A DNA stretch of 64,000 nt from Berryella intestinalis (GTDB lineage Bacteria > Actinomycetota > Coriobacteriia > Coriobacteriales > Eggerthellaceae): positions 930,001 to 994,000 of the forward strand of contig NZ_CP009302.1 of the NCBI RefSeq assembly GCF_000814825.1. The letters run 5' to 3'. Below the pieces are notes generated by a model, which saw only the letters and a program-made list of their open reading frames with translations, was not told the DNA's origin and searched no databases. Within the stretch, counting starts at the first letter, position 1; each line of letters starts with the position of its first letter. A program made the translations under genes and the position numbers. Below, one piece after another: positions 17,634 to 42,767 of the stretch.

Positions 17634-18728
17634 TCACGCCACGCCGTATATGGCCCTCCGCGCACGCGAGTCCCATTTCGCCTGCTTGATCCAGTACTCG
17701 TAGAACGGATAGGGGGTCACCTTGTACTGGCGCCAGGTCTTCTCGTACGTGCCGCGGGCCGCCTGCCTCACTATGAGCTCGGCGAGCTCGTCCGCGCTCC
17801 TGCGGACCTTGAAGCACCACGTCCACTTGAACCAGGCGAGGTAGTTCTCGAGGCGTCTCGTGGAGACGCCCCGGAACCTGCCGATGAAGTGCCTCATCTG
17901 GGAGTGGAGGCTGTTCACCCTGTTGATGGCGTGCTCCTCCCTCTTGCTGGCGATGTGCTCGCCGACGCCGAGGGCGGGCAGGACGCGGCGGTACACGTGC
18001 GCACGGTCCGTCGAGATTATCGCGCCGACCGCGAGCTTGTCGGCGAGCAGCTCCCTGGCTGCCGCCTCGTCGAGGCCGCCCCTCCCCGCGATCTCGTAGA
18101 AGATGTCGCCGGCGTCGTTGATGCCGGTGAGCACGCATATCTTCTCGTGCCCGTCGGTTCCCTGCGACCTTGCGCGGGGCTTCCTGGGCACGCCGGACTC
18201 CGACCTGGAGCGGTTTCCCTTGAAGCTCTCCCTGAAGAAGCACTCGTCGAGCTCGGCCCCGCCGCCGGCCTCCACGCGGAAGGCGGGCATGCGCTTGGCC
18301 ATGGCCTCGAGCAGCCTGTGGCGCATGAAGAACGCCGTCTTGAGGCACACGCCGCACTTTTCCGCCGACTCGCGCAGCGGGAGCATGTCCACGTGGCACT
18401 CCGCGAACCTCATCCAGGCCGACCTGTCGAGCTTGGTGGTGGAGAAGATGCGCATGGTGGCGTCGGTGAAGGTCCTGGCGCACCCTCGGCAGAGGAACCG
18501 CTGACGGCCGCGCCCGTCTCGCCCCCTCTTCACGTAATGCGGGGAGCCGCACCAGGGGCAGGCTCTGTCGGGATCGTCTTCCGCCCCCTCGCTTGCCGCG
18601 AGGTCGAACAACTCCGCGTCTATCAGCGCCTTGAGCGATCTCAGGGCCCTGCTCTTCTCGGCAGCCGTCATCTGCGGGAGGAACTGCCTCGTCAGCTGGG
18701 TGAGCACGTCTTCCATTGCAACCTCCAT
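17634..18728 (-). CDS. IS1595-family (ISXO2-like) transposase, copy 1
   Basis: The N-terminal zinc ribbon CPWCGSPHYVKRG and FLCRGCARTFTDAT (about residues 58-92) and the ISXO2-like DDE-type core are clear: AELDECFFRESFKGN, ISTDRAHVYRRVLP, INRVNSLHSQMRHFIGRF and STRRLENYLAWFKW. At 364 aa it is full length. Two starts four codons apart are possible (MEVAMEDV). It is convergent with the passenger gene and identical to the copy at 40952-42046. Confidence 0.93.
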   Translation of the reverse strand: MEVAMEDVLTQLTRQFLPQMTAAEKSRALRSLKALIDAELFDLAASEGAEDDPDRACPWCGSPHYVKRGRDGRGRQRFLCRGCARTFTDATMRIFSTTKLDRSAWMRFAECHVDMLPLRESAEKCGVCLKTAFFMRHRLLEAMAKRMPAFRVEAGGGAELDECFFRESFKGNRSRSESGVPRKPRARSQGTDGHEKICVLTGINDAGDIFYEIAGRGGLDEAAARELLADKLAVGAIISTDRAHVYRRVLPALGVGEHIASKREEHAINRVNSLHSQMRHFIGRFRGVSTRRLENYLAWFKWTWCFKVRRSADELAELIVRQAARGTYEKTWRQYKVTPYPFYEYWIKQAKWDSRARRAIYGVA

Positions 18729-19004
18729 CTTTCCTGATGATGGAATTGTCGCAATTGGGGGTCCTGCTGCGTGTACTGTGCATAGGACACTTATCCAAAG
18801 CGGTCTAACACAACGGTTAGCGCGGACATAGATTGGCCAACGCTCGTTCTAGAATCCCAGTAATGGGCATTGGCCAGCGAATGCAGCGCCCGGTGTTGAG
18901 ACTCTCGAGTATCAAACAGCTCAAGTCACCGTCAGGCAAAATGCTTCGCTTTACAAATGCCTTAGAATTATCTGGAAAAAGGCATTGGGCGAGGAGATAT
19001 CAAA

Positions 19005-23858: not shown

Positions 23859-24251
23859 TCATGTCGGTTCATCATCCGCAGCTAGCCTTCGTATGGCGCG
23901 CAGCTCACGAGCAAGGGCGTTGCTCGCCGCCATCAGGTTGATTGTCGAGAAGTCGTCTTGAAAGATGGTCAGGTATCCCAGCTCTTCCATTCGCATCAGC
24001 GATGCAGCTGCGGCTGTAATGCTGATCGGCGTATGGTCCAGCAGCATCTCGAAGGGAACGCCGAGCACCCATGCTATAGCCTCCGCATCTTTCAGACTGG
24101 GGCTTCGATCACCGAGCTCGTAGCTCCTGTAGGCCGACTCCGTCAGTCCGGAGCAGGTCGCTACCGAGCGCTGGGTTAAGCCCAATCTGGAACGCAAGCC
24201 CTTGAGGGCTTCCTGATCAACGGCTACCCGATCCTCAGGCTGCATCGTCAT
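23859..24251 (-). CDS. XRE-family helix-turn-helix regulator
   Basis: The protein is about 130 aa. The HTH occupies its first half: LKGLRSRLGLTQRSVATCSG, then LTESAYRSYELGDRSPSLKD. The C-terminal half is helical. The ATGs at 24251 and 24245 both follow AGGAGG; the 24245 start is better spaced. It is the last gene of the conjugation operon and may sense or repress transfer. It is a candidate binder for the 17-bp palindromes at 38364 and 40622. Confidence 0.82.
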   Translation of the reverse strand: MTMQPEDRVAVDQEALKGLRSRLGLTQRSVATCSGLTESAYRSYELGDRSPSLKDAEAIAWVLGVPFEMLLDHTPISITAAAASLMRMEELGYLTIFQDDFSTINLMAASNALARELRAIRRLAADDEPT

Positions 24252-24378
24252 GCTCCTCCTCGAGTGCCAAATCGTCCCACCCGTCGTCACTCATCGAGCC
24301 AACCCTGATGCAGCAATAGCACACTAGAGCGCAGAGACCCATGACCATGCCGGCTGCGAAGAATGCTGCGTGAATCAT
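24235..24378 (-). CDS. Small membrane protein, DUF3789-like
   Basis: A 47-aa protein begins MIHAAFFAAGMVMGLCALVC, a single N-terminal membrane helix, followed by an acidic tail (DDGWDDLALEEEHDDAA). The ATG at 24378 follows GGAGGCC. The gene overlaps the end of srtB and the start of the XRE gene. DUF3789 mini-proteins are recurrent in conjugative elements; their function is unknown. Confidence 0.6.
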   Translation of the reverse strand: MIHAAFFAAGMVMGLCALVCYCCIRVGSMSDDGWDDLALEEEHDDAA

Positions 24379-25082
24379 GATTCGGCCTCCATCGCATAGA
24401 CGACTGTCCTCGAGTTGCTCGTCTCGTACGAGCACGTGACGAAGGCGAATACCTGTCTGCCGGAACGGTATCCGTCAAGCACGACCTCGCTCTCCGCCTC
24501 CTCTGCGGCCATGTACTCTTCCAGCTCCCCCTGATCGCCGAAACTCAGGCGCACGTTCTTCTTGTTGGCGTTGATGACGTTGACGAGCACAGGCTCGAGA
24601 TGCAGGGTTTGTTCAGGCGTGTACAAGATGATTTCAGCATGTTCCTCAGCAAAAGGCCTGCTGCTGTAACCCGCCAGCGGGGCGAACATCGTCCCGTCCG
24701 ACATGTGGTGCCCGTAGATCATGACTAGGGGGCTTTCCAGACCCTCCTCGCAGCCGTTGGCAACGTAGGGAGTGCCCCATGCGGAGTATCGCCCCTCTGC
24801 ATCGTGGAATAGGTAGAATCCCGGGTCCTCGGTAAATCCCCTGACAACCGGATAGTCGATGGTGGTGCCAGGCACGTAGACCCATGCGATTACGCTGTCC
24901 GGGAGCGAACCCCAGTCGATGACTCTGTCCTGGCCTTCCTCATCTGGATCCGTGATTGCGCGTTGGTAGGTCGGGGAGGGGTTCTGCTCTACCCCGCCCT
25001 GCCCCAACACGAACATGGCGACTCCTGCCACAATCGCCAGGCACGAGAGTGCGACAAGCACTTTCCTTGTTCCGTTCTTCAT
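24375..25082 (-). CDS. srtB: Class B sortase
   Basis: Sortase B-type transpeptidases anchor surface proteins to peptidoglycan. The N-terminal membrane anchor (VLVALSCLAIVAGVAMFVLG) precedes the catalytic domain, with His in VMIYGHHMSDGTMFAPL, Cys in FAFVTCSYE and Arg in TSNSRTVVYA. The length of 235 aa is normal. It sits directly after the VaFE surface protein, its likely substrate. A strong terminator ends three to eight bases before the ATG and no Shine-Dalgarno is visible, so expression is probably low or reinitiation-based. Confidence 0.92.
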   Translation of the reverse strand: MKNGTRKVLVALSCLAIVAGVAMFVLGQGGVEQNPSPTYQRAITDPDEEGQDRVIDWGSLPDSVIAWVYVPGTTIDYPVVRGFTEDPGFYLFHDAEGRYSAWGTPYVANGCEEGLESPLVMIYGHHMSDGTMFAPLAGYSSRPFAEEHAEIILYTPEQTLHLEPVLVNVINANKKNVRLSFGDQGELEEYMAAEEAESEVVLDGYRSGRQVFAFVTCSYETSNSRTVVYAMEAES

Positions 25083-25131: not shown

Positions 25132-28100
25132 TTACTCGGTCACCTCCTCATCGGGCTCAGATTCGCCAGCATCCCCCTTCTTGCGACGGCCCATGAGCGC
25201 AAGTGCCGCTGCGCCCGCACCGGCGAGGACTGCACCTACGAGCGCCAAAATGCCGATGGTGCTGACGGGTGTGGTTGCTCCGGTCTTGTCGTAAGGGGTC
25301 TTGGGAACCTCAGGTGTGTCAGGGTTGTCGACGACGACGCTCTGTCCCGCGTCGTTGATGTCCTGATGGGCCGCCGCAAGGTTACCCTCGGCGGTCAGGC
25401 ACTCCTCGAATGCGACAAGGTTGTTGCCTTCGTTGAGCGAAGATGCATCGAACTCGAAGGTTACGTCAACGGTGCCGTTAGCCTTCTCTGCTACGAACTC
25501 AGCGGAAGTCACGACAGGGTTCCCTTCTGCGTCAGTGAGCGCCTCGCCGGTGGACTTCACCATCAGCGTGCCGTGGACGGTGTAGGTATCGCCCGCGACG
25601 AGGCCCTTGTACTCGACGGTGTCGATGAGCTTCACCTTGCCGGTGACGATGATCTGGTCGCCGTCGGCGGCATCGGTGAGCTTGGTGCCGATCTCGGCCA
25701 CGGTCACGGTCTGGCCCTCGTCGGAAGGATCCTCGTGGGATGCGAGCTGGACGTCTGCCGCGAAAAGCTTCTCGAAGACTACCAGGCTCTTGCCGCCAAG
25801 GCCGGTGCCGTCGAAGGCGATCTCCACTGCCTGGGTGCCATCGGCCTCATCAGGGGTGAAGGTAGCGCTGCCGGTCACCTGCCTCTCTATCAGGCCGTCC
25901 TTGACCATGACGGGCTCCCCGGTCTCGGCGTCGACCAGGGCCGCCTCAAGCGTGTACTCGGTGCCGGGGACGAGGCCCTCGTAGGCCACCTCGTCGACCA
26001 CGGTGATCTCGGTTCCGGTCACCAGCTTGTCGCCGTCGGCCTTGTCGGCGGCGGTGGTGCGGATGTCGAGGAAGTGCACGGTCTGGTCCTCGTCATCGAT
26101 ATCGGCATGCACGGCGACCTCGATGCCGTCGGAGGTCATGGACTCGAAGGCGACGATGTCCTCGCCCGCGAGCAGGCTGGAGTCGAAGGTGAACTCGAGC
26201 TGGACCTCGCCGGCCTCCTGCCTAGGCTTGAAGGTCTTGGTGGCGGTGATGGCGTTGCCATCCGCATCGAGCAGGGCCTCTCCGGTGGATTTCACCATCA
26301 GGGTGCCGGTGACGGTGTACTCGGTGCCGTCGTTCTTGAGGTTCTCGTACCAGACGGTGTCGACCAGGGTGGTCTCGGCGGAAGCCTGTGCCACGTGGTC
26401 GCCGTCGGCCTTGTCGGTCTCCTCGGTCTGGATCTTCGGGCCCTCCTTGTCGTCGAGGCTCATCCACACGGGCTTGGCCACGGTGGAGTCGCGCTCGATC
26501 ACGAAGGTCTTGGTCACCAGGTCGTAGCCCTCGTTGGAGTCGCTGCGGAGCTCTTCCAGGAGGTACTTGCCGTAAGGGAGTGCGGAGAGGCCGTCATCGA
26601 CGGCGGCGTTGGAGCCGTCCTCGCCAAGGGAGAACCATACGCCGGCCTTAGGATCCATGTCGGCTGCCTTGATGCTCTCCGAGGAGAGCAGGCCGTCGTT
26701 GCCGTTGGTGTTGTCGCTGTGCCTGTTCCAGGAGGAGGCCGTGGAGACGTTGCCGTTGCGGTCGGTCACGAGGACGTGGGACTCGCCGGTGGAGACGTTG
26801 GTCACCTTGAAGGCCACCTGCAGGGATGCGTTGGTGTCCTCTGCCATCTTCACGATCTCCAAGTCGTTGCGGACCACCTGGTCGGAGAACTCCAGGGGCC
26901 TCTCGTACCTGTCGCCTGCGACCAGCACGCCCTCTGCCCTCACCTGGAAGGTGCGGGGCCTGCCGTCGGTGAGCAGGTAGGAGTCGTTGGTCTTGGTCTC
27001 CTGGATGGTGTAGGTGCCGTAGGGAAGCGCGTCGGCAGCGGTCTGGGCGGTGTATGCCCCCATCTCGTCGTTCCATGCGGTCGCGATGGTCTCGATGACG
27101 TCGCCGGGCTCGTACCAGCTCCCGTCGACGAGGACCTTGCGCTCGGATGCGTTGGCGATGGTGAACTCGATGCCGGAAAGAGTGGAGCCGGTAGTCAAGG
27201 TGTCATGGGAGTTGCCGCCCAGGGCCTCGGAGGCTCCCAGCTCGACGTCGGACTTCGTCACCTGCACGCCGCCGCGGATGACGTCGTCTGCGCAGGGGCT
27301 GGATGTGAGGTCGACGACCTGTCCGTCAGAATTGATTTCGGCTTTAACGGACCAGTCGGACACGAGGTAGCCCTCGGGGGCCTCGGACTCGACCACGGTG
27401 TACGTGCCGCAAGGCAGCACGTTGGAGGTGGTCTTGGCGATATACGCGCCGGCGTCGCCGTCCCAATACCCGGTGATGGTCTTCACCACCTCGCCGCTTG
27501 CGTAGTAACGGCCGTCGACGAGGGCGTACTTGCCGGAGGAGTTGACGATGTCGTACTTAGCGCCGCCAAGCGTCGCATCGCCCTGGGGCTCGGCCCCTGC
27601 CTGGGAGTCAACCTTGGCCACCTTGAGGCCTCCCTTGTCCCAGGTGAAGCTCATGAGCACCTGGGTGCCAGGGCCCGTGTGGATGCAGAAGGCCTCGAAG
27701 CCCGTGGACACCTTGCCCTTGTTCGCCTTGATGGACTTCCAGGTTTTGCCAAGCAGCTCGCTGCGTGCCCAGTCCTCGAAGTCGCCGTTGGTGCCGAAGA
27801 CGGCATCGGCCTTGGAACCCTGGTAGGCATAGGCCAGGATCACGTGGCTTGCGGCCTTGTACTTGTCGGCGCTCCACCCGCTGCCGTCGTACCAGGAGTC
27901 GGGGAACATGGATGCGTCGAAGCCGGGCGCGCCGTAGCTGAACCACATGGCCGCGATGAGGTCGGCGTCGCTCACGCCGCTCTTGCTGTAGGTGCCGGGA
28001 GCAGGGGTGCTGGCCTGGGGATCCGCACAGTACGCGACCTCGCCGTCGGCATACATATGGGTCGTGGAATAGCCCGCATACGGGATGTCGTCGCCGATGG

Positions 28101-28233
28101 TGACGTTGACGCTGCCTGCCGCGAATGCATTCATGGGCGTGGCTACGCACACGCTCAATGCGAGGGCCATGCTCATGACGACCCTGATGATCTTGGAGGA
28201 TACGATTCTCTCCGTAGTCTTCGCTTTCATCAT
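25132..28233 (-). CDS. VaFE-repeat surface-anchored adhesin of the conjugation module
   Basis: A protein of 1033 aa. A signal peptide (MSMALALSVCVATPMNAFAA) is followed by an N-terminal domain with YCADPQASTPAPGTY and ASHVILAYAYQ, resembling thioester-type adhesin heads. Two Cna-B-like segments come next (GTYTVVESEAPEGYLV and GTYTIQETKTNDSYLL), then three VaFE repeats (VAFESMT, VVFEKLF, VAFEECL). The C-terminus has a YDKTG sorting-like motif, a membrane helix (TIGILALVGAVLAGAGAAAL) and an RRKK tail. Such proteins are thought to promote donor-recipient contact. SD AGGAGG precedes the ATG. The partner sortase follows. Confidence 0.9.
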   Translation of the reverse strand: MMKAKTTERIVSSKIIRVVMSMALALSVCVATPMNAFAAGSVNVTIGDDIPYAGYSTTHMYADGEVAYCADPQASTPAPGTYSKSGVSDADLIAAMWFSYGAPGFDASMFPDSWYDGSGWSADKYKAASHVILAYAYQGSKADAVFGTNGDFEDWARSELLGKTWKSIKANKGKVSTGFEAFCIHTGPGTQVLMSFTWDKGGLKVAKVDSQAGAEPQGDATLGGAKYDIVNSSGKYALVDGRYYASGEVVKTITGYWDGDAGAYIAKTTSNVLPCGTYTVVESEAPEGYLVSDWSVKAEINSDGQVVDLTSSPCADDVIRGGVQVTKSDVELGASEALGGNSHDTLTTGSTLSGIEFTIANASERKVLVDGSWYEPGDVIETIATAWNDEMGAYTAQTAADALPYGTYTIQETKTNDSYLLTDGRPRTFQVRAEGVLVAGDRYERPLEFSDQVVRNDLEIVKMAEDTNASLQVAFKVTNVSTGESHVLVTDRNGNVSTASSWNRHSDNTNGNDGLLSSESIKAADMDPKAGVWFSLGEDGSNAAVDDGLSALPYGKYLLEELRSDSNEGYDLVTKTFVIERDSTVAKPVWMSLDDKEGPKIQTEETDKADGDHVAQASAETTLVDTVWYENLKNDGTEYTVTGTLMVKSTGEALLDADGNAITATKTFKPRQEAGEVQLEFTFDSSLLAGEDIVAFESMTSDGIEVAVHADIDDEDQTVHFLDIRTTAADKADGDKLVTGTEITVVDEVAYEGLVPGTEYTLEAALVDAETGEPVMVKDGLIERQVTGSATFTPDEADGTQAVEIAFDGTGLGGKSLVVFEKLFAADVQLASHEDPSDEGQTVTVAEIGTKLTDAADGDQIIVTGKVKLIDTVEYKGLVAGDTYTVHGTLMVKSTGEALTDAEGNPVVTSAEFVAEKANGTVDVTFEFDASSLNEGNNLVAFEECLTAEGNLAAAHQDINDAGQSVVVDNPDTPEVPKTPYDKTGATTPVSTIGILALVGAVLAGAGAAALALMGRRKKGDAGESEPDEEVTE

Positions 28234-32136: not shown

Positions 32137-34617
32137 TCACTTCGCACCGCCGATCGGGCCCTCGCGCATGGAGCGCTCTGCGATCGCCGCGGGCTTGGTG
32201 TCGAACAGCTTGAAGAGCTCTCCCTTGGGGAAGTCGTCCTTGATCGGGACTCGGATGCCGCCTGCAACGAGGAGGCCCTCGCCGGCCTTGATGGACTCGT
32301 CGATGAAGCCCCTCTCTGCCGTGGAGAGATCGAGCATCTCCGTCCATGCCTCGAGGTCGGCGGGGCCCTGCTTGTGGAGCAGGAAGAAGTCCGAGTTGAT
32401 CACCATGTCTCGCGCGTTGGCGTTGAGCAGCATGTGCGAGGTGTTCTGGGAGATTCCGGTGCAGATGAGGCCGAACTTTCGGCCCTCGCGCCAGAGCCTG
32501 GCGAAGTAGTCGACGATGGTCGGGTGCCCGAAGAGGGACTGGACCTCGTCGATGTAGAGCCACGTGACGACATCCCTGGGAGGCGTGACCATGACACGGT
32601 TCCTCACCATCTCCAAGGCGGTGAGCATGCCGAACACCTTCATGTTCTGTCCCAGCTCGTGCATGTCGATGTTGGTGATCCTGTTCTCGAAGCCGACGTT
32701 GCTCTGGCCGTTGAAGAAGCTGAAGGCGCCATGGACGTAGCGCTCGTAGCGAAGCGCGATGTCCCTGGCCTCGGCCTCGGGCTGCTCCGCGAGGATGGCA
32801 TGGAAGTCCTCCAGGGTCGGGAGCCTGTCTTCGAGGGCGCAGCGGTCGTAGGCCAGGCCGACGCACCTCGTGATGATGGACCTGTCGTTCTCCGGCAGGC
32901 CCTCCGATCCCTCGGCCATGAGCGCGGACGAGAGGGCCAGGATCGCGTCTGTCTTGTAGGCGAGCTTGGTCGCGTCGCTGCGGTCCGATACGGCAGCCGT
33001 GTCGAACGGGTTGAGCGTCGTGTCGGTTCCCGGCGCAAGGCGGATGTTCGCTCCCCCCAAGGCGCTGATGAGGTTGCCGTACTCTCCGGCCGGGTCGAAG
33101 ATGATCACCTCGTCGCCGGGATGCGCGAGGATGGTATTCGTGATCTCCCTCTTGACGGAGAAGGACTTGCCGCTGCCGGGCTTTCCGCAAACGAAGCCCA
33201 TCGGGCTCGCAAGGAGTCCCCGGTCGCAGATGACGAGGTTTCCCGACTGCTTGGACTGGCCATAGTAACCGCCGCCGGGCTGGTTCAGCTCCTGGCTGGC
33301 GAACGGCATCTGCATGGCGATCTGGCCGGTCGTCAGGTACCTGAAGACGTCGACGTGGTTGTTGCCCAGGGGAAGCACCGAGTTGAGCGCCTCGCGCTGC
33401 CGCAGGTAGAGCGGCTCCACGCCCAGCGAGTTGCCCTGGGCGACGCTCACGATCTGCTCGACCTGCCTGTCGAGCTCCTCCAGGGTCGGCGCATAGGTGT
33501 AGATGAGGCCCGTGTAGCGGAAGAGCCTCTCGTTCTTGTTCCTGAGGAAGTCGAGGAGCTCCTCGGCCTCCTCCTTCGAGTAGCGGAGCTCGGGGGGCAG
33601 GATGGTGTAGTCATAGCCCTTCCTCACCGCGGTTCGCTGCTCGTCGATGATCTCCTTGTCCATCCAGTCGAGCTGGCCCTTCACCAGGGCGAGCGCATCG
33701 GATTGAGCCAGGGGCCGGGCATGGATGTTGACGGACAGCGGGATCGGAAGGTCGATGATGTTTGCGATGTAGTAGTCTTCGAGCACCGATCCGAAGCTCT
33801 TGATAAGCAGGACTTGGCAATAGACGTCGTCCACCCTGAATGCGTCCGCCCTGCCCTGGGGCTTGAAGTCGATGAGCATAGGCGCGATGAGGTCCTTGGT
33901 GCGCAGGCTCGATTTGTGGGACAGTTTGTCCCAGTCGAAGGTGAACTCGCTTTTCGGCCTGAGCTGCGACTGGAGTGCGCGCAGGCGCTCGGTGCCGTCG
34001 AGGGCGTGCGCCTGGCACCGGACTCGCGAGAGGGTCTGGATGCAGTCGCCCTTGATGCGCGAGAGCTTTGGGATTGCGCCGTCGACGTCGGCGGCGCCGA
34101 CCATGTAGGTCAGGTACCTGTGGCGCTCGAGGTTGGAGAAGCCCTCCCTCATCTTGTCGTTGAGGATGCCGTTGTACTCCTCGACGTACTTGGAGGTCGC
34201 TTCGTCGCCCTTTTCGAAGAACGCCCTCTTGCCGATCTCCCTGTCGGGGATGGGCACGTTTGCGATGGTGAGCTGGAAGCAGGTGTCCGCGCTGAAGTAG
34301 TTGTAGAGGCTCGATAGCACGGTGAATACGTTCTCCTGGTTCTCCTTTCTTGCGGATTGGTAGCTGATGTCGGAGAACTCGATGGTCTGGCTGAAGAGGC
34401 CGTCCTCCACCTGGGCTATGCCGTCCTTGTACATGGCGTCGTAGCCGATGTAGCGCAATATGTCTTTCGCCGAGCGCCTGAGCCTCTTCTGGGATTTCGC
34501 CTTCTCGTCGCTCGCCTTCTTGGTCTTGCTGGTCTTGCCGGCGCCCCCAAGGAGCAGTGCCAGCATCCCGGGCCTGGCCTGCGGCGCTTTCATGTCATTG
34601 CTGTTTCGTTGGCTCAT
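32137..34617 (-). CDS. virB4: VirB4-like conjugation ATPase
   Basis: This is the energising ATPase of the type IV secretion channel, 826 aa. The N-terminal VirB4 domain leads to Walker A FVCGKPGSGKSFSVKREI (about residue 490) and EVIIFDPAGEYG, then Walker B VTWLYIDEVQSLFGH and QNTSHMLLN. The start at 34617 overlaps the end of the PrgI gene by 23 bases, the usual PrgI-VirB4 coupling. The gene also contains a 17-bp palindrome, TGGGACAGTTTGTCCCA (33917-33933), matching two operator sites upstream. Confidence 0.95.
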   Translation of the reverse strand: MSQRNSNDMKAPQARPGMLALLLGGAGKTSKTKKASDEKAKSQKRLRRSAKDILRYIGYDAMYKDGIAQVEDGLFSQTIEFSDISYQSARKENQENVFTVLSSLYNYFSADTCFQLTIANVPIPDREIGKRAFFEKGDEATSKYVEEYNGILNDKMREGFSNLERHRYLTYMVGAADVDGAIPKLSRIKGDCIQTLSRVRCQAHALDGTERLRALQSQLRPKSEFTFDWDKLSHKSSLRTKDLIAPMLIDFKPQGRADAFRVDDVYCQVLLIKSFGSVLEDYYIANIIDLPIPLSVNIHARPLAQSDALALVKGQLDWMDKEIIDEQRTAVRKGYDYTILPPELRYSKEEAEELLDFLRNKNERLFRYTGLIYTYAPTLEELDRQVEQIVSVAQGNSLGVEPLYLRQREALNSVLPLGNNHVDVFRYLTTGQIAMQMPFASQELNQPGGGYYGQSKQSGNLVICDRGLLASPMGFVCGKPGSGKSFSVKREITNTILAHPGDEVIIFDPAGEYGNLISALGGANIRLAPGTDTTLNPFDTAAVSDRSDATKLAYKTDAILALSSALMAEGSEGLPENDRSIITRCVGLAYDRCALEDRLPTLEDFHAILAEQPEAEARDIALRYERYVHGAFSFFNGQSNVGFENRITNIDMHELGQNMKVFGMLTALEMVRNRVMVTPPRDVVTWLYIDEVQSLFGHPTIVDYFARLWREGRKFGLICTGISQNTSHMLLNANARDMVINSDFFLLHKQGPADLEAWTEMLDLSTAERGFIDESIKAGEGLLVAGGIRVPIKDDFPKGELFKLFDTKPAAIAERSMREGPIGGAK

Positions 34618-35005
34618 GGAGCTCTGCCCCCTTTCGCTTGGCTGCGCGTCGTGCGCGCCTGTTGGTCTTGCCCGTCTTGACTGCGGCGATTGCCGGGTCG
34701 GTCGGGCTCCTGTAGAGGAGGGATTGGTCATCGAGGTGGTGGGCGGCGAACCTGGGGATGAATTGCTCGAGCCTCATGCCGAAAGGCCGCCAGAAGCCTG
34801 CCAGCCAGAACGGGAGGCTTGCGCACATGACCGGGAAGGCGGCATTCGAGACCTCGATGCCGATCCAGAAGTAGATGATCGCCGCCGTTGCTATGGCGCT
34901 TGCGAAGCCGAGGGTCACGCAGACGAGCGTCCTGAGGCTGAGCTTGCCGACGATCTTCTCCTCGTACTCTCCGATGTCCTTCTGGACGGGGATCTGAAGG
35001 GACAT
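34595..35005 (-). CDS. PrgI-family conjugation protein
   Basis: A 136-aa protein: N-terminal IPVQKDIGEYEEKIVGKLSL, then two membrane helices (TLVCVTLGFASAIATAAIIY and AAFPVMCASLPFWLAGF) and a basic tail. This is the PrgI pattern, the VirB3-like partner of VirB4. It overlaps virB4. SD GGAGGTT precedes the ATG. Confidence 0.88.
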   Translation of the reverse strand: MSLQIPVQKDIGEYEEKIVGKLSLRTLVCVTLGFASAIATAAIIYFWIGIEVSNAAFPVMCASLPFWLAGFWRPFGMRLEQFIPRFAAHHLDDQSLLYRSPTDPAIAAVKTGKTNRRARRAAKRKGAELHEPTKQQ

Positions 35006-35404: not shown

Positions 35405-37246
35405 TCACTCAGCTACGAGGGAATCCCTCTCATAGGCCCACCTCCTCGCTCTGTATTCCTTGAAGTCGAACGGACCGCGGCCTTCGAGCCTTGCCGACCT
35501 CGGATGCTTGCGCAGGTCGTATTTCTTGTCCTTGAAGGGCTGCGCGCCGTTGATCAGCACCAATCCCTCGTCCCTCGGCATTCGCGCTATCTCGGAGGCC
35601 TGTATCAGGTCTCGCTCGAACACGCCGTAGTTCCTCGTGGTGGAGGGGTTTGCTCCGCGGGAGTCGTTCACCGTCATGTTCTTCACGGTCTGCTTGCCCA
35701 CCATCTCCGATATCTCCTTGTTGGTCTCGTTTGACTTGCCGCCGAGATAGACGAAGGTGTCGCAGGCGTTGACGATGGTGGCTGCGTTGTTGTCGCCGTA
35801 GGTCTCCTTGAGCTGCGAGAGGGACTGCAGGATCATCGACACGGCGATGTTGCGGCTGCGCGTCACGGTGATCATCCGCTCGAAGTCGGGCACCCGGCCG
35901 ATGTTGGCGAACTCGTCGAACATGAAGTGGACGGGGCGCGGGAGCCGGCCCTGGAACCTCGAGAGCGCGACCTCGCATAGCGTGTCCATCGCCAAGTGCA
36001 TGAGCAGCGCGAACAGGAAGTCGAAGGTGGAGTCCGTGTCCGACATGGACGCGAAGACCACGGTCTTCCTGCTCGCGTCGCCCAGGTGGCCGAGGTCCAT
36101 CTCGTCGTAGGAGAGGATCTCGCGGACCTCGTCGATGTCGAAGGGCTTCATGCGGACGTTGCAGCTGACCATGATGGACTTCATTGTCTTGCCGGCCGCC
36201 ACCTTGAACTGCTTGTAGGTGGCCAGGGAGAAGTCCTCTTCCGGCTTCGCGGGCTTGCCGACCTCGATCCACTCGAATGCCTCGACCCCCTCGTCGAAGT
36301 CCCTCCGCTCGGGGTCGTAGGCGGTGGCCGTGGCCTTGGGAGCCAGGCGCCTGCCCGTCTCGATCTCGTTGAAAAGCATGTCGAGCGGGCTCATGTAGTC
36401 CTCGTCGTCCTCGCGGGCGTCTGCGAGGGCGAGCAGCATGATGAGGCCGCCGACGTTCCGGTCCTCGGGCGGGCAGTGGGCGATCAGGTATCCCACCAGC
36501 GCCGTGTAGAGGAGCTTCTCGGCGTTCTCCCAGAAGGGGTCGCCGGAATGCTCCTTGTCGCCCGTCGTGTTCTTCACGAGGCACTCCACGAACTTCAGGA
36601 TGCCCTTCTCGTCGCGTACGTAGGCGAGAGGGTTGAAGTGCATGGACCTGGAGAAGTCGATGGTGTCGAAGGTGAGGATGTCGTAGCCCGATTCCTCGAA
36701 GAGCCAGCCGACGTCCATGATCAGCGTCCCCTTCGGGTCGGTGATGAAGTAGTTGGCGTTCAGCTGGTAGAGGTTCGGCTTGACGTAGTAGCGGGTCTTG
36801 CCCGTTCCGGGTCCTCCCACCACGAGCATGTTGTTGTTGGTCTCCGTCCTCTGGTCGTGGGACGTGTCGATGAAGCGCTTCTTGGATCGCGAGGAGAGGA
36901 TGATGTTGTTGTCCGGATCCTTGGAATCCGCGTAGGCCCCCATCTCCTTGGCGGTCGCCCACCTGGAGCTTCCATGCTCCTCGCCGCGCCGGTAGTTTCC
37001 CATGCGCTCAGCCTCCCTGGCCCAGAAAAGCCACACCGCGCAGGCGCAGGCCGCGCCGATCGCGACGGAGAGGGTGTCTGCGTAGAAGAGGTGGCCCGAT
37101 GCAAGGGAGTCGGGGAGGGTTTCCGCGAATCCCCCACCCGCCATGAGCGGGTTGGTCCCGGTTTCCTGGGCATGGCCCGCGATGACGTTTCCGACGAGGA
37201 AGGAGATCGCCGAGCATATGGCGGCGAAGAGCACATCGCTTCTCAT
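35405..37246 (-). CDS. virD4: VirD4/TraG-type coupling protein
   Basis: This ATPase links the relaxosome to the channel, 613 aa. Two N-terminal membrane helices, Walker A NMLVVGGPGTGKTRYYVKPN (about residue 145), FDTIDFSRSMHFNPLAYV and Walker B-like VHFMFDEFANIGRVPDFE, followed by ITVTRSRNIAVSMILQSLSQ. The start overlaps the pcfB stop (ATGA). Gene order PcfB-VirD4 is as in pCF10-like systems. Confidence 0.95.
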   Translation of the reverse strand: MRSDVLFAAICSAISFLVGNVIAGHAQETGTNPLMAGGGFAETLPDSLASGHLFYADTLSVAIGAACACAVWLFWAREAERMGNYRRGEEHGSSRWATAKEMGAYADSKDPDNNIILSSRSKKRFIDTSHDQRTETNNNMLVVGGPGTGKTRYYVKPNLYQLNANYFITDPKGTLIMDVGWLFEESGYDILTFDTIDFSRSMHFNPLAYVRDEKGILKFVECLVKNTTGDKEHSGDPFWENAEKLLYTALVGYLIAHCPPEDRNVGGLIMLLALADAREDDEDYMSPLDMLFNEIETGRRLAPKATATAYDPERRDFDEGVEAFEWIEVGKPAKPEEDFSLATYKQFKVAAGKTMKSIMVSCNVRMKPFDIDEVREILSYDEMDLGHLGDASRKTVVFASMSDTDSTFDFLFALLMHLAMDTLCEVALSRFQGRLPRPVHFMFDEFANIGRVPDFERMITVTRSRNIAVSMILQSLSQLKETYGDNNAATIVNACDTFVYLGGKSNETNKEISEMVGKQTVKNMTVNDSRGANPSTTRNYGVFERDLIQASEIARMPRDEGLVLINGAQPFKDKKYDLRKHPRSARLEGRGPFDFKEYRARRWAYERDSLVAE

Positions 37247-37791
37247 CGAGCCTTCTGCTCCAAGCGCTCCACCTGGCGAACCTGTTCTCGGGCTGCCTTG
37301 CTTGCAGCCGAGGCGGCCTTGGCCTGCTCGGCTTTCACGGCGAGCCTCTCAGCATCCCTGGACTTGGGCTGGGCGATCCTCTCCTTGGCTTCGTCAAGCG
37401 CCTCGGACGCCTTCCTCTCGAGGTCCGCGAAAACCTCGTCGACGTCCGGCGCGTCTTCGACCTTGAAAACGAGGAAGCCACGCTCGCCATCGTTGTGGAA
37501 GGCATGCTCGATGGAGGCCCTGTCCAGTTCCTCGTCGATGAGCTGCCTGATGGATTCGTATTCCGGAAGCTGCTCGAACTCAGCCATGCTGAGCTTCGCC
37601 CACTGAGGCGCGTCTTCCAGTTCTTCGGCGACGGCGTCCGGGGTCCCTGCGACCTGGCCGCGCGCGTTCCTGAAGGCGTTTGCGAGCCTTTCGGCGCCTG
37701 CCGACATCGCCGCGCCGCCCGCATCCTGCCCGATTCTCAGCATCCAGTCGACGAGCTTCTCGCCGGAGTCGTCCCCGTAGTCGCTTGGCAT
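37243..37791 (-). CDS. pcfB: PcfB-like protein (DUF3801)
   Basis: A 182-aa protein: a helical N-terminus (EKLVDWMLRIGQDAGGAAMS) and a long charged C-terminal helix (KASEALDEAKERIAQPKSRD to the end) that is coiled-coil prone. DUF3801/PcfB proteins pair with the adjacent coupling protein. It overlaps virD4 (ATGA) and follows the unknown gene by 30 bases. Confidence 0.82.
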   Translation of the reverse strand: MPSDYGDDSGEKLVDWMLRIGQDAGGAAMSAGAERLANAFRNARGQVAGTPDAVAEELEDAPQWAKLSMAEFEQLPEYESIRQLIDEELDRASIEHAFHNDGERGFLVFKVEDAPDVDEVFADLERKASEALDEAKERIAQPKSRDAERLAVKAEQAKAASAASKAAREQVRQVERLEQKAR

Positions 37792-37821
37792 AACATGCCG
37801 CCTTTCTCTAAGTTTCCTGGC

Positions 37822-38346
37822 TTATCTTGTGTGGTTGGGTCCTTGTCGGTGCTGAGTTGCGGAATCGAGCGTTGCTGACGCCTGGATGGCTCCCTGGGCC
37901 CTGTCGGCGAGGCTCTGAGGCCTCTCGGGTATCTTCGAGTCCATGTAGCGCAGGGATGTGCACTCCTCCTTGGTCGCGTGACGCATATGTAGCATCGCGT
38001 CCTCGAACTCCGCGGGGTCTAGCGATATCCGACCGAAGCTCCAGCTCTCGAAGTCGACCCATTCCCCGTCGAAGCGCTTGCAGGTCCACCATTCGTCGCC
38101 GCCGTTGACCTGCTGGATGAAGGCGAGGTCCTCGTAGACGAAACCCTGCCTGATGGCCCAGTTCCCGCGCGCGAACGCGTTGCGGAGATCCTCGATGCTC
38201 TCGGCCTTGGAGAACTCGTAGGGGTATTCCTCCATGAAGGGGTCATCCTGCCAGTCGTAGCCGCCGCGCTTGAGCCAGCCGTTCTCCTGGCACTTGGCCA
38301 CGAGGAGCTCGTGCTCCTCTCCGGTGATGGGTGCGAAGCCCTCCAT
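37822..38346 (-). CDS. Unknown first gene of the transfer operon, 174 aa
   Basis: I do not recognise the family. The protein is acidic and aromatic-rich (GYDWQDDPFMEEYPYEF and GGDEWWTCKRFDGEWVDFES), with no membrane helix. The ATG at 38346 follows AAAGGACC. It leads the pcfB-virD4 operon; a 17-bp palindromic operator sits 18 bases upstream of the start, so it is the entry point of transfer transcription. An antirestriction or regulatory role would fit the place, but sequence does not show one. Confidence 0.65.
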   Translation of the reverse strand: MEGFAPITGEEHELLVAKCQENGWLKRGGYDWQDDPFMEEYPYEFSKAESIEDLRNAFARGNWAIRQGFVYEDLAFIQQVNGGDEWWTCKRFDGEWVDFESWSFGRISLDPAEFEDAMLHMRHATKEECTSLRYMDSKIPERPQSLADRAQGAIQASATLDSATQHRQGPNHTR

Positions 38347-38363
38347 GTCGGTCCTTTCGTCGG

Positions 38364-38380
38364 TGGGACAATCTGTCCCA
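38364..38380. promoter_or_regulatory. 17-bp operator upstream of the transfer operon
   Basis: TGGGACAATCTGTCCCA, a near-perfect palindrome with a 3-base centre, lies directly before the first transfer gene. A second copy (reverse complement TGGGACAATCTGTCTCA) lies upstream of the xis/rep operon at 40622, and a third is inside virB4. It probably binds an element-encoded repressor. Confidence 0.65.
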
Positions 38381-38515
38381 GTGGGTCTCTGCTTGGCGGC
38401 GGCGAGGCGCTAGGAGTCACGAGCTCGGTTTTCGTTTGCGGGGATGTTTCAGCTGACCAGCTCTTCCTCGCCGCCAAATGCGCTTATACCAGCAGTGGGA
38501 GGGACGCTGCTGCCG

Positions 38516-39349
38516 TCATCGACGCCTAAGGTTCCCTTGGGTTCCCTTGGTTCCGTCTTCACCGAAAAAGCTGGATTCGCGCCTTCTGTCCCTATTCGGC
38601 AGGCGGACATGCGTCGAGGTCTGCACGATCCTCGAGACGATCGCCTCGGCGGTCTCGCGGTCCCCGTATCTGGCCATCCGGGACAGCAGCGTGTCTACGT
38701 CGTACTGCGACGTGTATATGGTCGGGAGCATGTCCTCGTAGCGGGAGTTGACGATTTGGAAGAGGTTTGTGAGGGCCCAGGAGCTGGTCGTATCCTTGCC
38801 TATGTCGTCCATGATCAGGACGTCGCTGCCGACATAGCGGCTGATGCCAGGCGCGCGGTCGTCGTCGTAGCTGCGCTTGATCTCCTCGAGCATTGAGAGG
38901 GTCGTTCCCATGGCCACGCTGTAGCCCGACAGAACGAACGCCTTCGCGATGGCGCTTGCCGCGTAGGTCTTTCCGGAGCCCACGCATCCCTCGATGTAGA
39001 GCCCGGCTCCCCTGTTTCCCCCGAAGCTAGACAGGTACCGAGCCGATGCCTCTAGGTCGACCCTCGCGCCGAGGAAGCGCCTGGCGATACCCGCCTTGAG
39101 GAACTTGGATTGGAGCTTGGACTCGGCCTCCTTGGCCTCCCTCTCCTCCTCTTTCCGCTTTGCCTCGAGCTCTTCCGGGCAGCCGCAGGGCTCATGGGTG
39201 ATCCACCTGACCTCGCCGCCGTACTCGATGCCGAGGGGAACGGTTGCCCGCCCGCAGTACGTGCAGGCAACCGGTTCCGGCTCGGAGTGCCTCAATCCCC
39301 TGGCCCTTGCCTCCTCGAGCGTAATGAATGGATTCCTCTCGTCCTTCAA
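38516..39349 (-). CDS. DnaC/IstB-like replication ATPase
   Basis: A 277-aa protein. An N-terminal zinc-like motif (CTYCGRATVPL and CGCPEE) is followed by a coiled-coil and an ATPase with Walker A YIEGCVGSGKTYAASAIAKA and Walker B VLIMDDIGKD. DnaC-like loaders place the helicase at an origin. It follows the winged-helix replication gene by 15 bases. The GGTTCCCTTG repeats (38530-38554) fall in its C-terminal codons (GTKGTQGN). Confidence 0.88.
   Translation of the reverse strand: MKDERNPFITLEEARARGLRHSEPEPVACTYCGRATVPLGIEYGGEVRWITHEPCGCPEELEAKRKEEEREAKEAESKLQSKFLKAGIARRFLGARVDLEASARYLSSFGGNRGAGLYIEGCVGSGKTYAASAIAKAFVLSGYSVAMGTTLSMLEEIKRSYDDDRAPGISRYVGSDVLIMDDIGKDTTSSWALTNLFQIVNSRYEDMLPTIYTSQYDVDTLLSRMARYGDRETAEAIVSRIVQTSTHVRLPNRDRRRESSFFGEDGTKGTQGNLRRR
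38530..38554. repeat. GGTTCCCTTG direct repeats at the end of the DnaC-like gene
   Basis: Two exact 10-bp copies (38530-38539 and 38540-38549) and a partial third (GTTCC). The same pattern (GGTTCCCTTG GGTTCCCTAA) occurs at 40557-40576 upstream of the xis/rep operon. Placement at both ends of the replication gene block suggests iterons or regulator sites. Confidence 0.5.
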
Positions 39350-39364
39350 ACGAGGCCGCCTTTC

Positions 39365-39850
39365 CTATCTGAAACCTTTGTTATCAGCCTTTCTTATCGG
39401 CTGACAATTCGTCAGCCCGGGGACTGAAGATTCGTCATCCCCCTGTGCCCTTTCGACTGACAAGATTTCAGGGGGTGACGTTTTGTCAGGGGGTGACGTT
39501 TTGTCAGGGTCTGGACCCCTCGCCCTCGGGGGAATGGCCGACCATACGACCGAGTAGCACTTCGTCTCGACGCCGCTTGCGTGTCGATGGGAGCCCGACT
39601 CCTGGATCAGCCCCTTTTCGAGCAGGTCCGAGAAGGCCCTGTATACGGACCTCTCCGTTGTGTTCAGGAAGCTTGCGAGATGGGGCTTGCTCTCATAAAA
39701 GTCCAATCCTGCCGAGTTGAAGCCGTAGATGCGGGCAAAGACGAGGAGCGGGACTCCAGAGAGTCCCATTCCTTTCATCATGAACCCATGCAACGTGATG
39801 AACCCTTCAGGGGAAGCGCGCTCATCACCCGCGCTCTTGATGTCCTTCAT
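39365..39850 (-). CDS. Winged-helix replication initiator-like protein
   Basis: A 161-aa protein: an N-terminal winged helix like the start of RepA/DnaD-type proteins (LLVFARIYGFNSAGLDFYES, then FLNTTERSVYRAFSDLLEKG) and a proline/threonine-rich C-terminal tail containing repeated DKTSPP. The tail codons form TGAC-N5-GTCA repeats. It is followed by the DnaC-like gene, the usual initiator-loader pair of a conjugative element. The ATG at 39850 has AGGAGAAA upstream. Confidence 0.75.
   Translation of the reverse strand: MKDIKSAGDERASPEGFITLHGFMMKGMGLSGVPLLVFARIYGFNSAGLDFYESKPHLASFLNTTERSVYRAFSDLLEKGLIQESGSHRHASGVETKCYSVVWSAIPPRARGPDPDKTSPPDKTSPPEILSVERAQGDDESSVPGLTNCQPIRKADNKGFR
39402..39506. 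repeat. TGAC-N5-GTCA repeats in the rep gene 3' end
   Basis: TGACAATTCGTCA at 39402-39414 and TGACGTTTTGTCA at 39476-39488 and 39494-39506, the latter two 18 bp apart. They overlap coding sequence for the DKTSPP repeats. Spaced palindromes inside a rep gene are typical iterons or an origin; double use is inferred. Confidence 0.5.
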
Positions 39851-39857
39851 TTTTCTC

Positions 39858-40100
39858 CTAGCCCCTTTGCTCGCGCTCGCGGACTAGGACGGTGTTACGA
39901 AGGACCCAATCGCGGAGCTCCCTCCGATCCGCTATCGATCCACGCTTTGCCCCTGGGAAAGTCCTGAGGGGCAGCGGGTCATCATCGCGTTCCGCGAGCT
40001 CGTACAGCCTTCTCTTGCTTATTCTCAGCAAGTCCATCACCTGCTGGGCGCTGTAGTAGTCCTGAGGTGGCACTGGTCTAGGTCCTGTTGCATCATTCAT
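39858..40100 (-). CDS. AlpA/excisionase-like DNA-binding protein
   Basis: An 80-aa protein with a MerR-like HTH: DYYSAQQVMDLLRISKRRLY followed by PLPLRTFPGAKRGSIADRRE and RDWVLR. AlpA/Xis-type proteins direct excision or regulate transfer. The ATG at 40100 is favoured; longer frames to 40178 have no support. It lies in the xis-rep-dnaC operon. Confidence 0.75.
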   Translation of the reverse strand: MNDATGPRPVPPQDYYSAQQVMDLLRISKRRLYELAERDDDPLPLRTFPGAKRGSIADRRELRDWVLRNTVLVREREQRG

Positions 40101-40195
40101 CGTCTGCCTCGTTTCGAGTTCGTTTGAGGCGGCAAGACGATGCCTCGCCCTTCGATAGCGCCGAAGCTTCGGGTGCAATCAACATGGCTCGGACC

Positions 40196-40441
40196 TCATT
40201 TGTTCGGTTGGTCGCCAAGTGTTCCGTTTGCTTTTATGTATCGGTCAAGAGACAGCCTGTTCACGAGAATCCTCCTTCCCAGCCTGTACGACCTGACCTC
40301 TCCGGCCTTGATGAGCTCATAGGCCTTGGTCCTTCCGGCATGCATGTATTCCTGCATTTCGGCTACGGTCATCCATTCGCTGGGGCCACTCACGGCCTGG
40401 TTCTGATCAGTGCAGCCGCTGCAGTCGCTTTGTGGTCTCAT
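40196..40441 (-). CDS. Excisionase-like HTH protein
   Basis: An 81-aa protein with the excisionase pattern EWMTVAEMQEYMHAGRTKAY, ELIKAGEVRSYRLGRRILVN, SLDRYIKANG. It is the first gene of the xis-rep operon; a 17-bp operator and GGTTCCCTTG repeats lie upstream. The cognate integrase is not in the window. Confidence 0.75.
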   Translation of the reverse strand: MRPQSDCSGCTDQNQAVSGPSEWMTVAEMQEYMHAGRTKAYELIKAGEVRSYRLGRRILVNRLSLDRYIKANGTLGDQPNK

Positions 40442-40556
40442 GCGTCCTCCTATCCTTTCCGCGCCGTATCGCTGCGTTCCGCGGCGTTACGCCATGTACG
40501 TTCATCAGCCTTCTACACGAAAGCGGGAAAGGAGTCTTTTGAGAGGAATGGGCTTC

Positions 40557-40576
40557 GGTTCCCTTGGGTTCCCTAA
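40557..40576. repeat. GGTTCCCTTG repeats upstream of the xis/rep operon
   Basis: GGTTCCCTTG at 40557-40566 and GGTTCCCTAA at 40567-40576. Same 10-bp period as at 38530-38554 in the DnaC-like gene. Confidence 0.5.
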
Positions 40577-40621
40577 GTCCCATATTCAAGAAACTGGCAT
40601 AATATCGGTTGGATGTCTCGC

Positions 40622-40638
40622 TGAGACAGATTGTCCCA
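40622..40638. promoter_or_regulatory. 17-bp operator upstream of the xis/rep operon
   Basis: TGAGACAGATTGTCCCA is the reverse-strand version of the operator at 38364, with one change. It overlaps a second palindrome TGTCTCGCTGAGACA just before it. The double site suggests cooperative repression of excision/replication genes. Confidence 0.6.
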
Positions 40639-40951
40639 GCAGCTGTGAAAGTGCCTCGCTATTCGACGGTGCAGGATGCTCAGCGCCAATGCTGAAATGC
40701 GACCTTCGCCCGGCGCTAACTGTTCCTGACGTACATCGCATCACCACCCGTGCTGTGTTTATGCTGCTCTTACGTGCAGGCAGGCTTGACCGACAGGCTC
40801 ACGCGTAGTTGGCGAGCTTGAAAAATGGTATTACCTGGAGCTATTCGAGCCTGTCCGTCCTAATCGTTGTGTTAGACCGCTTTGGATAAGTGTCCTATGC
40901 ACAGTACACGCAGCAGGACCCCCAATTGCGACAATTCCATCATCAGGAAAG

Positions 40952-42046
40952 ATGGAGGTTGCAATGGAAGACGTGCTCACCCAGCTGACGAGGCAGTTCC
41001 TCCCGCAGATGACGGCTGCCGAGAAGAGCAGGGCCCTGAGATCGCTCAAGGCGCTGATAGACGCGGAGTTGTTCGACCTCGCGGCAAGCGAGGGGGCGGA
41101 AGACGATCCCGACAGAGCCTGCCCCTGGTGCGGCTCCCCGCATTACGTGAAGAGGGGGCGAGACGGGCGCGGCCGTCAGCGGTTCCTCTGCCGAGGGTGC
41201 GCCAGGACCTTCACCGACGCCACCATGCGCATCTTCTCCACCACCAAGCTCGACAGGTCGGCCTGGATGAGGTTCGCGGAGTGCCACGTGGACATGCTCC
41301 CGCTGCGCGAGTCGGCGGAAAAGTGCGGCGTGTGCCTCAAGACGGCGTTCTTCATGCGCCACAGGCTGCTCGAGGCCATGGCCAAGCGCATGCCCGCCTT
41401 CCGCGTGGAGGCCGGCGGCGGGGCCGAGCTCGACGAGTGCTTCTTCAGGGAGAGCTTCAAGGGAAACCGCTCCAGGTCGGAGTCCGGCGTGCCCAGGAAG
41501 CCCCGCGCAAGGTCGCAGGGAACCGACGGGCACGAGAAGATATGCGTGCTCACCGGCATCAACGACGCCGGCGACATCTTCTACGAGATCGCGGGGAGGG
41601 GCGGCCTCGACGAGGCGGCAGCCAGGGAGCTGCTCGCCGACAAGCTCGCGGTCGGCGCGATAATCTCGACGGACCGTGCGCACGTGTACCGCCGCGTCCT
41701 GCCCGCCCTCGGCGTCGGCGAGCACATCGCCAGCAAGAGGGAGGAGCACGCCATCAACAGGGTGAACAGCCTCCACTCCCAGATGAGGCACTTCATCGGC
41801 AGGTTCCGGGGCGTCTCCACGAGACGCCTCGAGAACTACCTCGCCTGGTTCAAGTGGACGTGGTGCTTCAAGGTCCGCAGGAGCGCGGACGAGCTCGCCG
41901 AGCTCATAGTGAGGCAGGCGGCCCGCGGCACGTACGAGAAGACCTGGCGCCAGTACAAGGTGACCCCCTATCCGTTCTACGAGTACTGGATCAAGCAGGC
42001 GAAATGGGACTCGCGTGCGCGGAGGGCCATATACGGCGTGGCGTGA
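40952..42046 (+). CDS. IS1595-family transposase, copy 2
   Basis: Identical in sequence to the copy at 17634-18728 (zinc ribbon, ISXO2-like DDE core, 364 aa), on the plus strand. The intact frame in both copies indicates recent duplication; either could supply transposase. Confidence 0.93.
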   Translation: MEVAMEDVLTQLTRQFLPQMTAAEKSRALRSLKALIDAELFDLAASEGAEDDPDRACPWCGSPHYVKRGRDGRGRQRFLCRGCARTFTDATMRIFSTTKLDRSAWMRFAECHVDMLPLRESAEKCGVCLKTAFFMRHRLLEAMAKRMPAFRVEAGGGAELDECFFRESFKGNRSRSESGVPRKPRARSQGTDGHEKICVLTGINDAGDIFYEIAGRGGLDEAAARELLADKLAVGAIISTDRAHVYRRVLPALGVGEHIASKREEHAINRVNSLHSQMRHFIGRFRGVSTRRLENYLAWFKWTWCFKVRRSADELAELIVRQAARGTYEKTWRQYKVTPYPFYEYWIKQAKWDSRARRAIYGVA

Positions 42047-42117
42047 TGTCCAGGGCGGTCTGGCGCAGCGCATCTGCGGCAAGCGCTGAAGTCGTGACCC
42101 GATGCAAAAAGCAACAG

Positions 42118-42612
42118 CTAGCGATATTCTTCGGGAACGTCGAAACCGTACTCACGGCATAGGAGCATGACATCGTGGACGTCGTGCTCGTCATGCTGAT
42201 AGCCCAAGTGAAACAACAGCTGGCTTTCGGGGTCGATGCACGACACCTCCACCTCGCCGATGCGCCCCCTCCCCGAAAAGACCTCCCCGGGAAAACGATC
42301 TCCCTGATACAGAATATCGCCATTCTCGGCGAAATCGAAGCAATGCAGGTCGACGATGCGCCCCGCCTCGTCTTGCCACACCGTGTGATCTTCGGTGGTG
42401 AAAGATGCAGCCACCTCGGAAAACCCCTCATCAGCAATTAGATCCACGAACCTTTGGTAATCCCCGCGCTGAACGAACAGGTCGATGTCGTTATGAGCCC
42501 TGGTCTCACGCCCGACAAGCGCATCGACGCCCCAGCCGCCATCAAGATATACGCCAATGCCCGCACCTGCGGAAAGGCCGATTATCCAACACGCATCATC
42601 CTTGGTGACCAT
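42118..42612 (-). CDS. Lincosamide nucleotidyltransferase-like protein, copy 2
   Basis: Identical to the passenger at 17068-17562, 164 aa, with the GGWGVDALVGRETRAHNDID core. Convergent with its transposase. Two copies double the gene dosage and offer homology for inversion of the DNA between them. Confidence 0.72.
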   Translation of the reverse strand: MVTKDDACWIIGLSAGAGIGVYLDGGWGVDALVGRETRAHNDIDLFVQRGDYQRFVDLIADEGFSEVAASFTTEDHTVWQDEAGRIVDLHCFDFAENGDILYQGDRFPGEVFSGRGRIGEVEVSCIDPESQLLFHLGYQHDEHDVHDVMLLCREYGFDVPEEYR

Positions 42613-42767
42613 AGGAGCTCCTTCGCTTTCGCCTGCTATTTAAGCAAGAAAGATTATAGGAAAAGTCCCAGTATCCAAAGTGGTCTAACACAACGGATAA
42701 CGGGGACACCTGTGAATCGGCCCCGCTGTAGAATCTGACTACTGGTTGAATTGATGAGAGGGAAAAA

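Follow-up and report, generated by a model that had tools for sequence, protein, structure and literature searches.

A recurring palindrome in a Berryella intestinalis conjugative element as a probable binding site of the element's own ParB

The window analysed here, a 64,000-nucleotide stretch of the Berryella intestinalis genome (assembly GCF_000814825.1, contig NZ_CP009302.1, positions 930,001 to 994,000), carries an integrative conjugative element (ICE) in which the 17-bp palindrome TGGGACA-N3-TGTCCCA recurs ahead of the transfer operon, ahead of the excision and replication genes, and inside virB4. The protein that binds it is very probably the ParB-family protein encoded by the element itself, and the palindromes are likely to be sites of the parS/KorB-operator type with two jobs, partition and local repression. 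That ParB represses the transfer operon is proposed more tentatively, and is doubted slightly more than it is believed. From site conservation, the co-occurrence of sites with ParB, the covariation of one residue with one base and the similarity to the sopC sites of the F plasmid, all of which were computed, we infer binding, partition, repression and clamp sliding.

Palindromes in the window and the source genome

An earlier sequence-only reading of the window had noted the palindrome at 38364, at 33917 inside virB4 and, with one mismatch, at 40622, and all three copies were confirmed (Table 1). Site 1 lies 17 nt ahead of the ATG of a 174-aa gene and directly 5' of a Shine-Dalgarno-like GAAAGGA, and the counterpart of site 2 in the sister element described below has no mismatch. 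With at most one mismatch allowed, three sites are found in the window versus none in 100 dinucleotide shuffles. In the whole source genome (1,967,093 bp) the same threshold returns the three window sites only, all of them within 6.7 kb. The excess is gone at up to three mismatches (four sites in the window, with 20 of 100 shuffles equally high), and because the genome holds 10 sites at up to two mismatches versus five for a reversed-pattern control, weaker matches carry little meaning. Perfect 7-N3-7 palindromes of any sequence number 13 in the window; the remarkable feature is the recurrence of the same arm sequence, not a perfect 7-N3-7 palindrome as such.

The same reading had described a second palindrome overlapping site 2. 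It exists (TGTCTC-N3-GAGACA at 40614-40628) but was rejected as a conserved feature. It is probably incidental, because it depends on the one-base mismatch of the window's own copy and the sister element reads GCTGGGACA at this position.

Sites in related elements

The 174-aa protein was searched in 138 genomes of the same family and matched in 30. Thirty-seven loci were fetched, and 38 elements including that of the window were followed, many with extended flanks. The closest is a sister element in Enteroscipio rubneri (G061), 98% identical, which has five sites, four of them exact. Exact TGGGACA-N3-TGTCCCA occurs in 14 of the 38 elements. Seven have the core GGGACAAATTGTCCC, each with two or three copies, and five have TGTGACA or TGYGACA sites with the same layout. 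The elements with exact sites have two to five each, except G024 with one, so that several dispersed sites near replication and transfer genes are found, as for KorB.

Twelve of the 14 elements with exact sites have a leader copy 17-30 bp ahead of the first transfer genes; that of G061b has one mismatch. The leader copy precedes the 174-aa gene in the window and the sister and a 182-aa gene in the others, and is absent from G024 and G046a. The same spacing of 17-30 bp was seen in three elements that were added later, namely G304b, G102b and, with one mismatch, G066c. A terminator-like hairpin, as read from the sequence, ends a few bases ahead of the leader site in several relatives, and would keep upstream transcription out of the transfer operon.

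The seven elements with the GGGACAAATTGTCCC core, termed Ala184-type after their ParB (see below), have their sites in virB4 (all seven), nlpC (six) and the sortase gene (the six whose fetched DNA reaches there). None has a leader site and all recognised sites lie inside genes, which speaks against a pure promoter operator.

As a separate observation, an 8.5-kb contig (L194, G055:C43) carries four TGGGACA-type sites, two of them exact, at 751, 3805, 4684 and 7723, together with no transfer-gene or ParB matches. The contig may belong to a different kind of element that shares the site.

Residue 181 of ParB and the sequence of the site

ParB proteins of this family, scored at E below 1e-100, were found in 26 of the 138 genomes; of the genomes with two types, G066, G076 and G102 were counted in the Lys181 class and G057 in the Arg181 class. 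A Lys181 ParB goes with TGGGACA, Lys181 combined with Ala184 goes with GGGACAAATTGTCCC, and Arg181 goes with TG(T/C)GACA. Exact TGGGACA-N3-TGTCCCA is present in 14 of 16 Lys181 genomes (Ala184-only genomes excluded) versus 8 of 122 others (Fisher 6e-12), and exact TGTGACA-N3-TGTCACA in 3 of 5 Arg181 genomes versus 2 of 133 others, or 5 of 138 overall (Fisher 2e-4), p-values that overstate the strength of the association since the genomes are not independent. Both exact dialects were found together in none of the 138 genomes. A fourth Arg181 genome, that of G137, contains three TGYGACA sites and no more; they share one contig, and one of them lies 45 bp before transfer genes.

A covariation scan was made over 14 element proteins projected on the residues of the window; the Arg dialect was represented by five elements, or four for ParB, with the ParB of G137 assigned by genome. 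Of the 280 ParB columns, position 181 alone has one invariant residue per dialect, Lys or Arg. No such column exists in the xis, second HTH_17, rep or MobC proteins; DnaC has one and VirB4 three, neither protein being a candidate for site-specific DNA binding. The ParB tree requires residue 181 to have changed on at least two separate occasions and places the ParB of the window nearer to the Arg181 proteins than to most Lys181 ones, with G137 on a long branch whose exact place is unsure. The dialect thus follows the residue more than the lineage.

Two further elements bear on the association. In G304b, which belongs to another family and was fetched later, a Lys181 ParB goes with exact sites in both leader and virB4. 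The genome of G024 (L053, L089, L090) has no ParB match, unrelated open reading frames occupy the expected parAB place, and the element, which seems to have lost parAB, has also lost the leader site and is left with the virB4 site alone.

The ParB of the window matches ParB_N with E 1.5e-5, slightly under the gathering score. Its helix-turn-helix spans about residues 162-196, with the recognition helix running from 180 and starting S179-G180-K181, and in an AlphaFold model built from 14 sequences (mean predicted local distance difference test score 82.2) residues 180-196 form the second helix of this motif. The model resembles Noc, ParB and KorB (Z 12.9, 11.9 and 11.3); against the SopB-DNA structure 3mkz it scores Z 3.8. 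G84-H85-R86-R87, a candidate motif for the binding of cytidine triphosphate (CTP), is invariant in 14 ParBs. Close relatives were sought in plasmids and phages, where matches of 25-32% identity only were found. The Ala184-type ParBs (L203-L218) have identical recognition helices and are 60-62% identical to that of the window; their hosts are Collinsella, Olsenella, Gordonibacter, Senegalimassilia, Varibaculum and Arcanobacterium. The ParB copies of this subtype are nearly identical to one another, and together these findings suggest a recently spread element.

The element site nearly matches the sopC site of the F plasmid, TGGGACC-AY-GGTCCCA, which is bound by SopB; the F plasmid record contains TGGGACCACGGTCCCA eight times and TGGGACCATGGTCCCA once. 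The centre is 2 bp in sopC and 3 bp in the element site, and sopC is a tandem array beside sopB, whereas the element sites are dispersed and far from parAB. In one hhalign run of ParB against SopB (E 0.0069, 5.6% probability) Lys181 was aligned to Lys191 of SopB, to which it probably corresponds. Lys191 and Arg195 of SopB are base contacts. F SopABC and N15 SopAB each comprise, like the element, a ParA and a ParB-like protein. The repeats of phage N15 read TGCGACC-N2-GGTCGCA (PMC7205306) and differ from F sopC at the third base, and the residue of N15 SopB at the place of F Lys191 is Asn. Three sites were found in the N15 record, dispersed at 35931, 41125 and 45562.

Conservation of the virB4 copy

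The site lies at the same codon position of virB4 in 20 of the 38 elements and in the three fetched later, in two of which VirB4 identity is down to about 50%. In these copies the serine codon is always TCC and the leucine codon always ends in TG, and elements without the site differ in residues or codons. Among six dereplicated genes, a single codon is kept in 4 of 21 conserved serine columns, and a codon ending in G in 3 of 44 conserved leucine columns. Multiplied together, and with 19/24 for aspartate, these rates give the fixed codons of the site a probability of about 1%, unusual enough to be suggestive but not decisive. Equally many invariant bases occur in 52 of 785 virB4 windows, so invariance by itself is not striking, and the left half of the site encodes a Trp-Asp pair that is conserved anyway.

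Gene content of the element

The ParA, ParB, MobC and relaxase genes lie at 12.5-16.3 kb, the VirB/VirD4 transfer operon reaches 38.3 kb and the xis-HTH-rep-DnaC operon reaches 40.4 kb. A Tet(M/W)-type resistance gene, the XRE gene, a sortase and an adhesin are found at 21-28 kb. As in ParABS (type I) partition systems, a Walker-type ParA ATPase is encoded beside parB, and the two genes are adjacent in the elements where both were found. An ARAGORN search for a tRNA attachment site found none, and an Rfam search of the window returned no matches.

Table 1. Copies of the palindrome and genes of the conjugative element, in window coordinates
Feature	Position	Strand	Remarks
Site 1	38364-38380		TGGGACA-N3-TGTCCCA; perfect 7-bp arms
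Site 2	40622-40638		one mismatch; 180 bp before the xis-like gene (40196-40441)
Site 3	33917-33933		perfect arms, inside virB4; codons TGG GAC AAA CTG TCC CA
ParA-family ATPase	12544-13503	+	AAA_31 E 6e-37; open reading frame begins upstream of the likely true start
ParB-family protein, 300 aa	13490-14392	+	proposed binder
NikA/MobC-like relaxosome protein	14667-15089	+
MobA/VirD2-like relaxase	15089-16342	+
XRE gene	23859-24290	-	HTH_3, element-borne; rejected as binder
VirB4 ATPase	32137-34731	-	CD1110 family; holds site 3
VirD4/TraG coupling protein	35405-37246	-
182-aa conserved gene	37243-37791	-	site directly ahead of this gene in most relatives
174-aa conserved first transfer gene	37822-38346	-	without Pfam match
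IstB/DnaC-type ATPase	38516-39349	-	probable helicase loader (putative role)
Probable replication initiator	39365-39850	-	winged-helix-like, iteron-like repeats in gene (putative role)
Second, weak HTH_17 protein	39858-40178	-
Excisionase-like HTH_17 protein (xis-like)	40196-40441	-

A surface adhesin (25132-28233) with thioester and T-Q ester-bond domains stands beside the sortase (24375-25082) at the end of the transfer operon. Flanking the module are two inverted copies, 99.8% identical, of an 1845-bp unit (16984-18828 and 40852-42696) that comprises an IS1595-type transposase and an aminoglycoside-adenylyltransferase-like gene; the unit is also present in the Olsenella element L192 (99-100% at the protein level). 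Inversion of the module mediated by insertion sequences was considered and rejected, the sister having identical order and orientation. The rep gene contains two tandem 18-bp repeats TCAGGGGGTGACGTTTTG together with inverted units related to them (39468-39503 and 39401-39441), which resemble the iterons of a replication origin, and the palindrome CCTGACG-N3-CGTCAGG is found near the rep gene in relatives.

Discussion

The sequence-only reading had one repressor holding excision, replication and transfer silent together, with the XRE protein as best candidate. The idea of a single regulator is probably correct in its main lines: because the palindrome is element-specific and recurs at an equivalent place, one element-encoded protein probably acts on all sites. 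As a pure promoter-operator view it is too narrow, since the virB4 copy is widespread and one recently spread subgroup has intragenic sites only. The choice of the XRE protein did not survive the comparison with the sister element. It is an HTH_3 protein of the element, encoded where the transfer operon ends, and short palindromes are common targets of XRE repressors, but in the sister only residues 85-143 of it are left, with about 330 bp including the start and the helix-turn-helix missing, and all five sites persist, one of them better preserved. Moreover, in a comparison of 12 elements an XRE sequence at that place is confined to the window and the sister; the other 10 have no homologue there, and weaker homologues lie at other positions. 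XRE control of the sites was rejected as highly improbable, and the covariation at the recognition helix points to ParB instead. Classical operator binding by another regulator of the element, either the excisionase-like or the second HTH_17 protein, would fit their being encoded in the operon beside site 2 and the presence of the second in most elements. It is nevertheless unlikely, as neither protein has any residue that is fixed by dialect, the excisionase-like one occurs in just 14 of 21 TGGGACA-dialect elements, and small proteins of the excisionase/AlpA type usually bind direct, not inverted, repeats.

The position of site 1 just ahead of the Shine-Dalgarno sequence, with a 7-bp stem and a 3-nt loop that could form, would also suit an RNA hairpin in the leader that controls translation of the first transfer gene. 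Such a role does not suit the copies that lie 180 bp from a gene, within virB4 or, in the sister, between two convergent genes. In addition, the change of dialect preserves the 17-mer architecture as a whole and tracks a DNA-binding protein, which leaves the hairpin as the least credible of the alternatives. Considerably more weight, though still well below the two-job account, is given to sites that serve as a partition centromere only, bound by ParB and placed where they do least harm, with no role in expression. The intragenic virB4 position, the sites of the Ala184-type elements in virB4, nlpC and sortase, and the little promoter room left where a hairpin ends just before the leader site are all in its favour. 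The sites of the TGTGACA elements, which except in G137 lie kilobases upstream of rep, also argue against a purely regulatory role. On the other hand, 12 of the 14 exact-site elements and the three later ones share a leader site 17-30 bp ahead of the start codon, and G137, which has another dialect, carries one 45 bp ahead of it; this repeated position looks like selection for that place. A combination of partition and local repression, as for KorB, accounts for leader sites and for intragenic and far sites alike.

Several observations weigh against ParB as the binder in a two-job system. The sites had been taken to mark two promoters, yet a sigma-70 scan of 37700-41000 gave no promoter-like sites, and no sites were found near parAB in the window. 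Twelve of the 38 elements, some on short contigs, have no recognised site, among them G057c2, which encodes a full ParB and has one GGGGTCA-N3-TGACCCC. Exact TGGGACA sites are present in seven genomes without this ParB family, and G009 has TGTGACA sites with no ParB match in the genome. Conversely, G109 and G114 have a Lys181 ParB and no exact sites, and G028 has an Arg181 ParB, no TGTGACA site and a TGGGACA site on another contig. The ParB contig of G137 could not be joined to the site-bearing contig, which makes this a genome-level case. Sequence similarity to SopB is weak, and a second hhalign run, for which the SopB profile had two sequences, returned E 0.46 with the alignment shifted. The ENxxR motif of ParBs that bind CTP aligns only in part with the element protein, and we are unsure whether it uses CTP.

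In the mechanism that we favour, a ParB dimer would bind the two TGGGACA half-sites through its helix-turn-helix, with Lys181 at the start of the recognition helix reading the third base, a part probably played in F SopB by Lys191. ParB would load, perhaps as a CTP clamp, at the scattered sites in the transfer-operon leader, at one or more around the xis/rep operon and at the fixed place in virB4. Together with ParA it would serve the partition of the excised, replicating element, and by covering the adjacent leader it would hold down the expression of transfer and replication genes. The leader position suggests that ParB hinders the start of transcription or translation of the transfer operon.

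A close parallel is KorB of RK2, a ParB-family protein that acts at operators both near and distant to repress genes of replication and transfer (PMC11790492). As for KorB, the sites of the element are dispersed near replication and transfer genes, and the ParB model resembles the KorB fold. Unlike the KorB system, the element is chromosomally integrated, its repression is a prediction from sequence, and a KorA counterpart was not identified. Among other ICEs, those of the SXT/R391 group have active partition (srpMRC), and ParA/ParB are present in Tn4371-like elements (PMC4489591). Both are, like the element described here, replicating integrative conjugative elements with partition genes, although the SXT/R391 system is of the actin type, unlike ParA/ParB; for the ICEs bearing ParAB, the part of that paper that deals with them names no dispersed sites in transfer genes (PMC4489591). 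Chromosomal ParB and Noc share the fold of the element ParB, but their site sequence differs and the element is mobile. Their sites, too, are palindromic, and some are intragenic. In the literature searched, no description of ParB control in this element family was found, which is no proof of absence.

More speculatively, and with somewhat less confidence than the repression of the transfer operon itself, ParB may be a master switch in a widespread family of Coriobacteriia ICEs that is divided into specificity groups by residue 181. Clamps at dispersed sites including virB4 would silence the transfer and replication operons while the element is integrated and would serve partition once it replicates, under a code in which Lys181 stands for G and Arg181 for T or C. 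The natural Lys and Arg dialects offer a ready test of how ParB changes its DNA specificity, in a lineage distant from those commonly used as models. If ParB does couple partition with the control of excision, replication and transfer, it would be a natural place to seek the switch of these gut elements, and in an element that carries a Tet(M/W)-type resistance gene that control matters.

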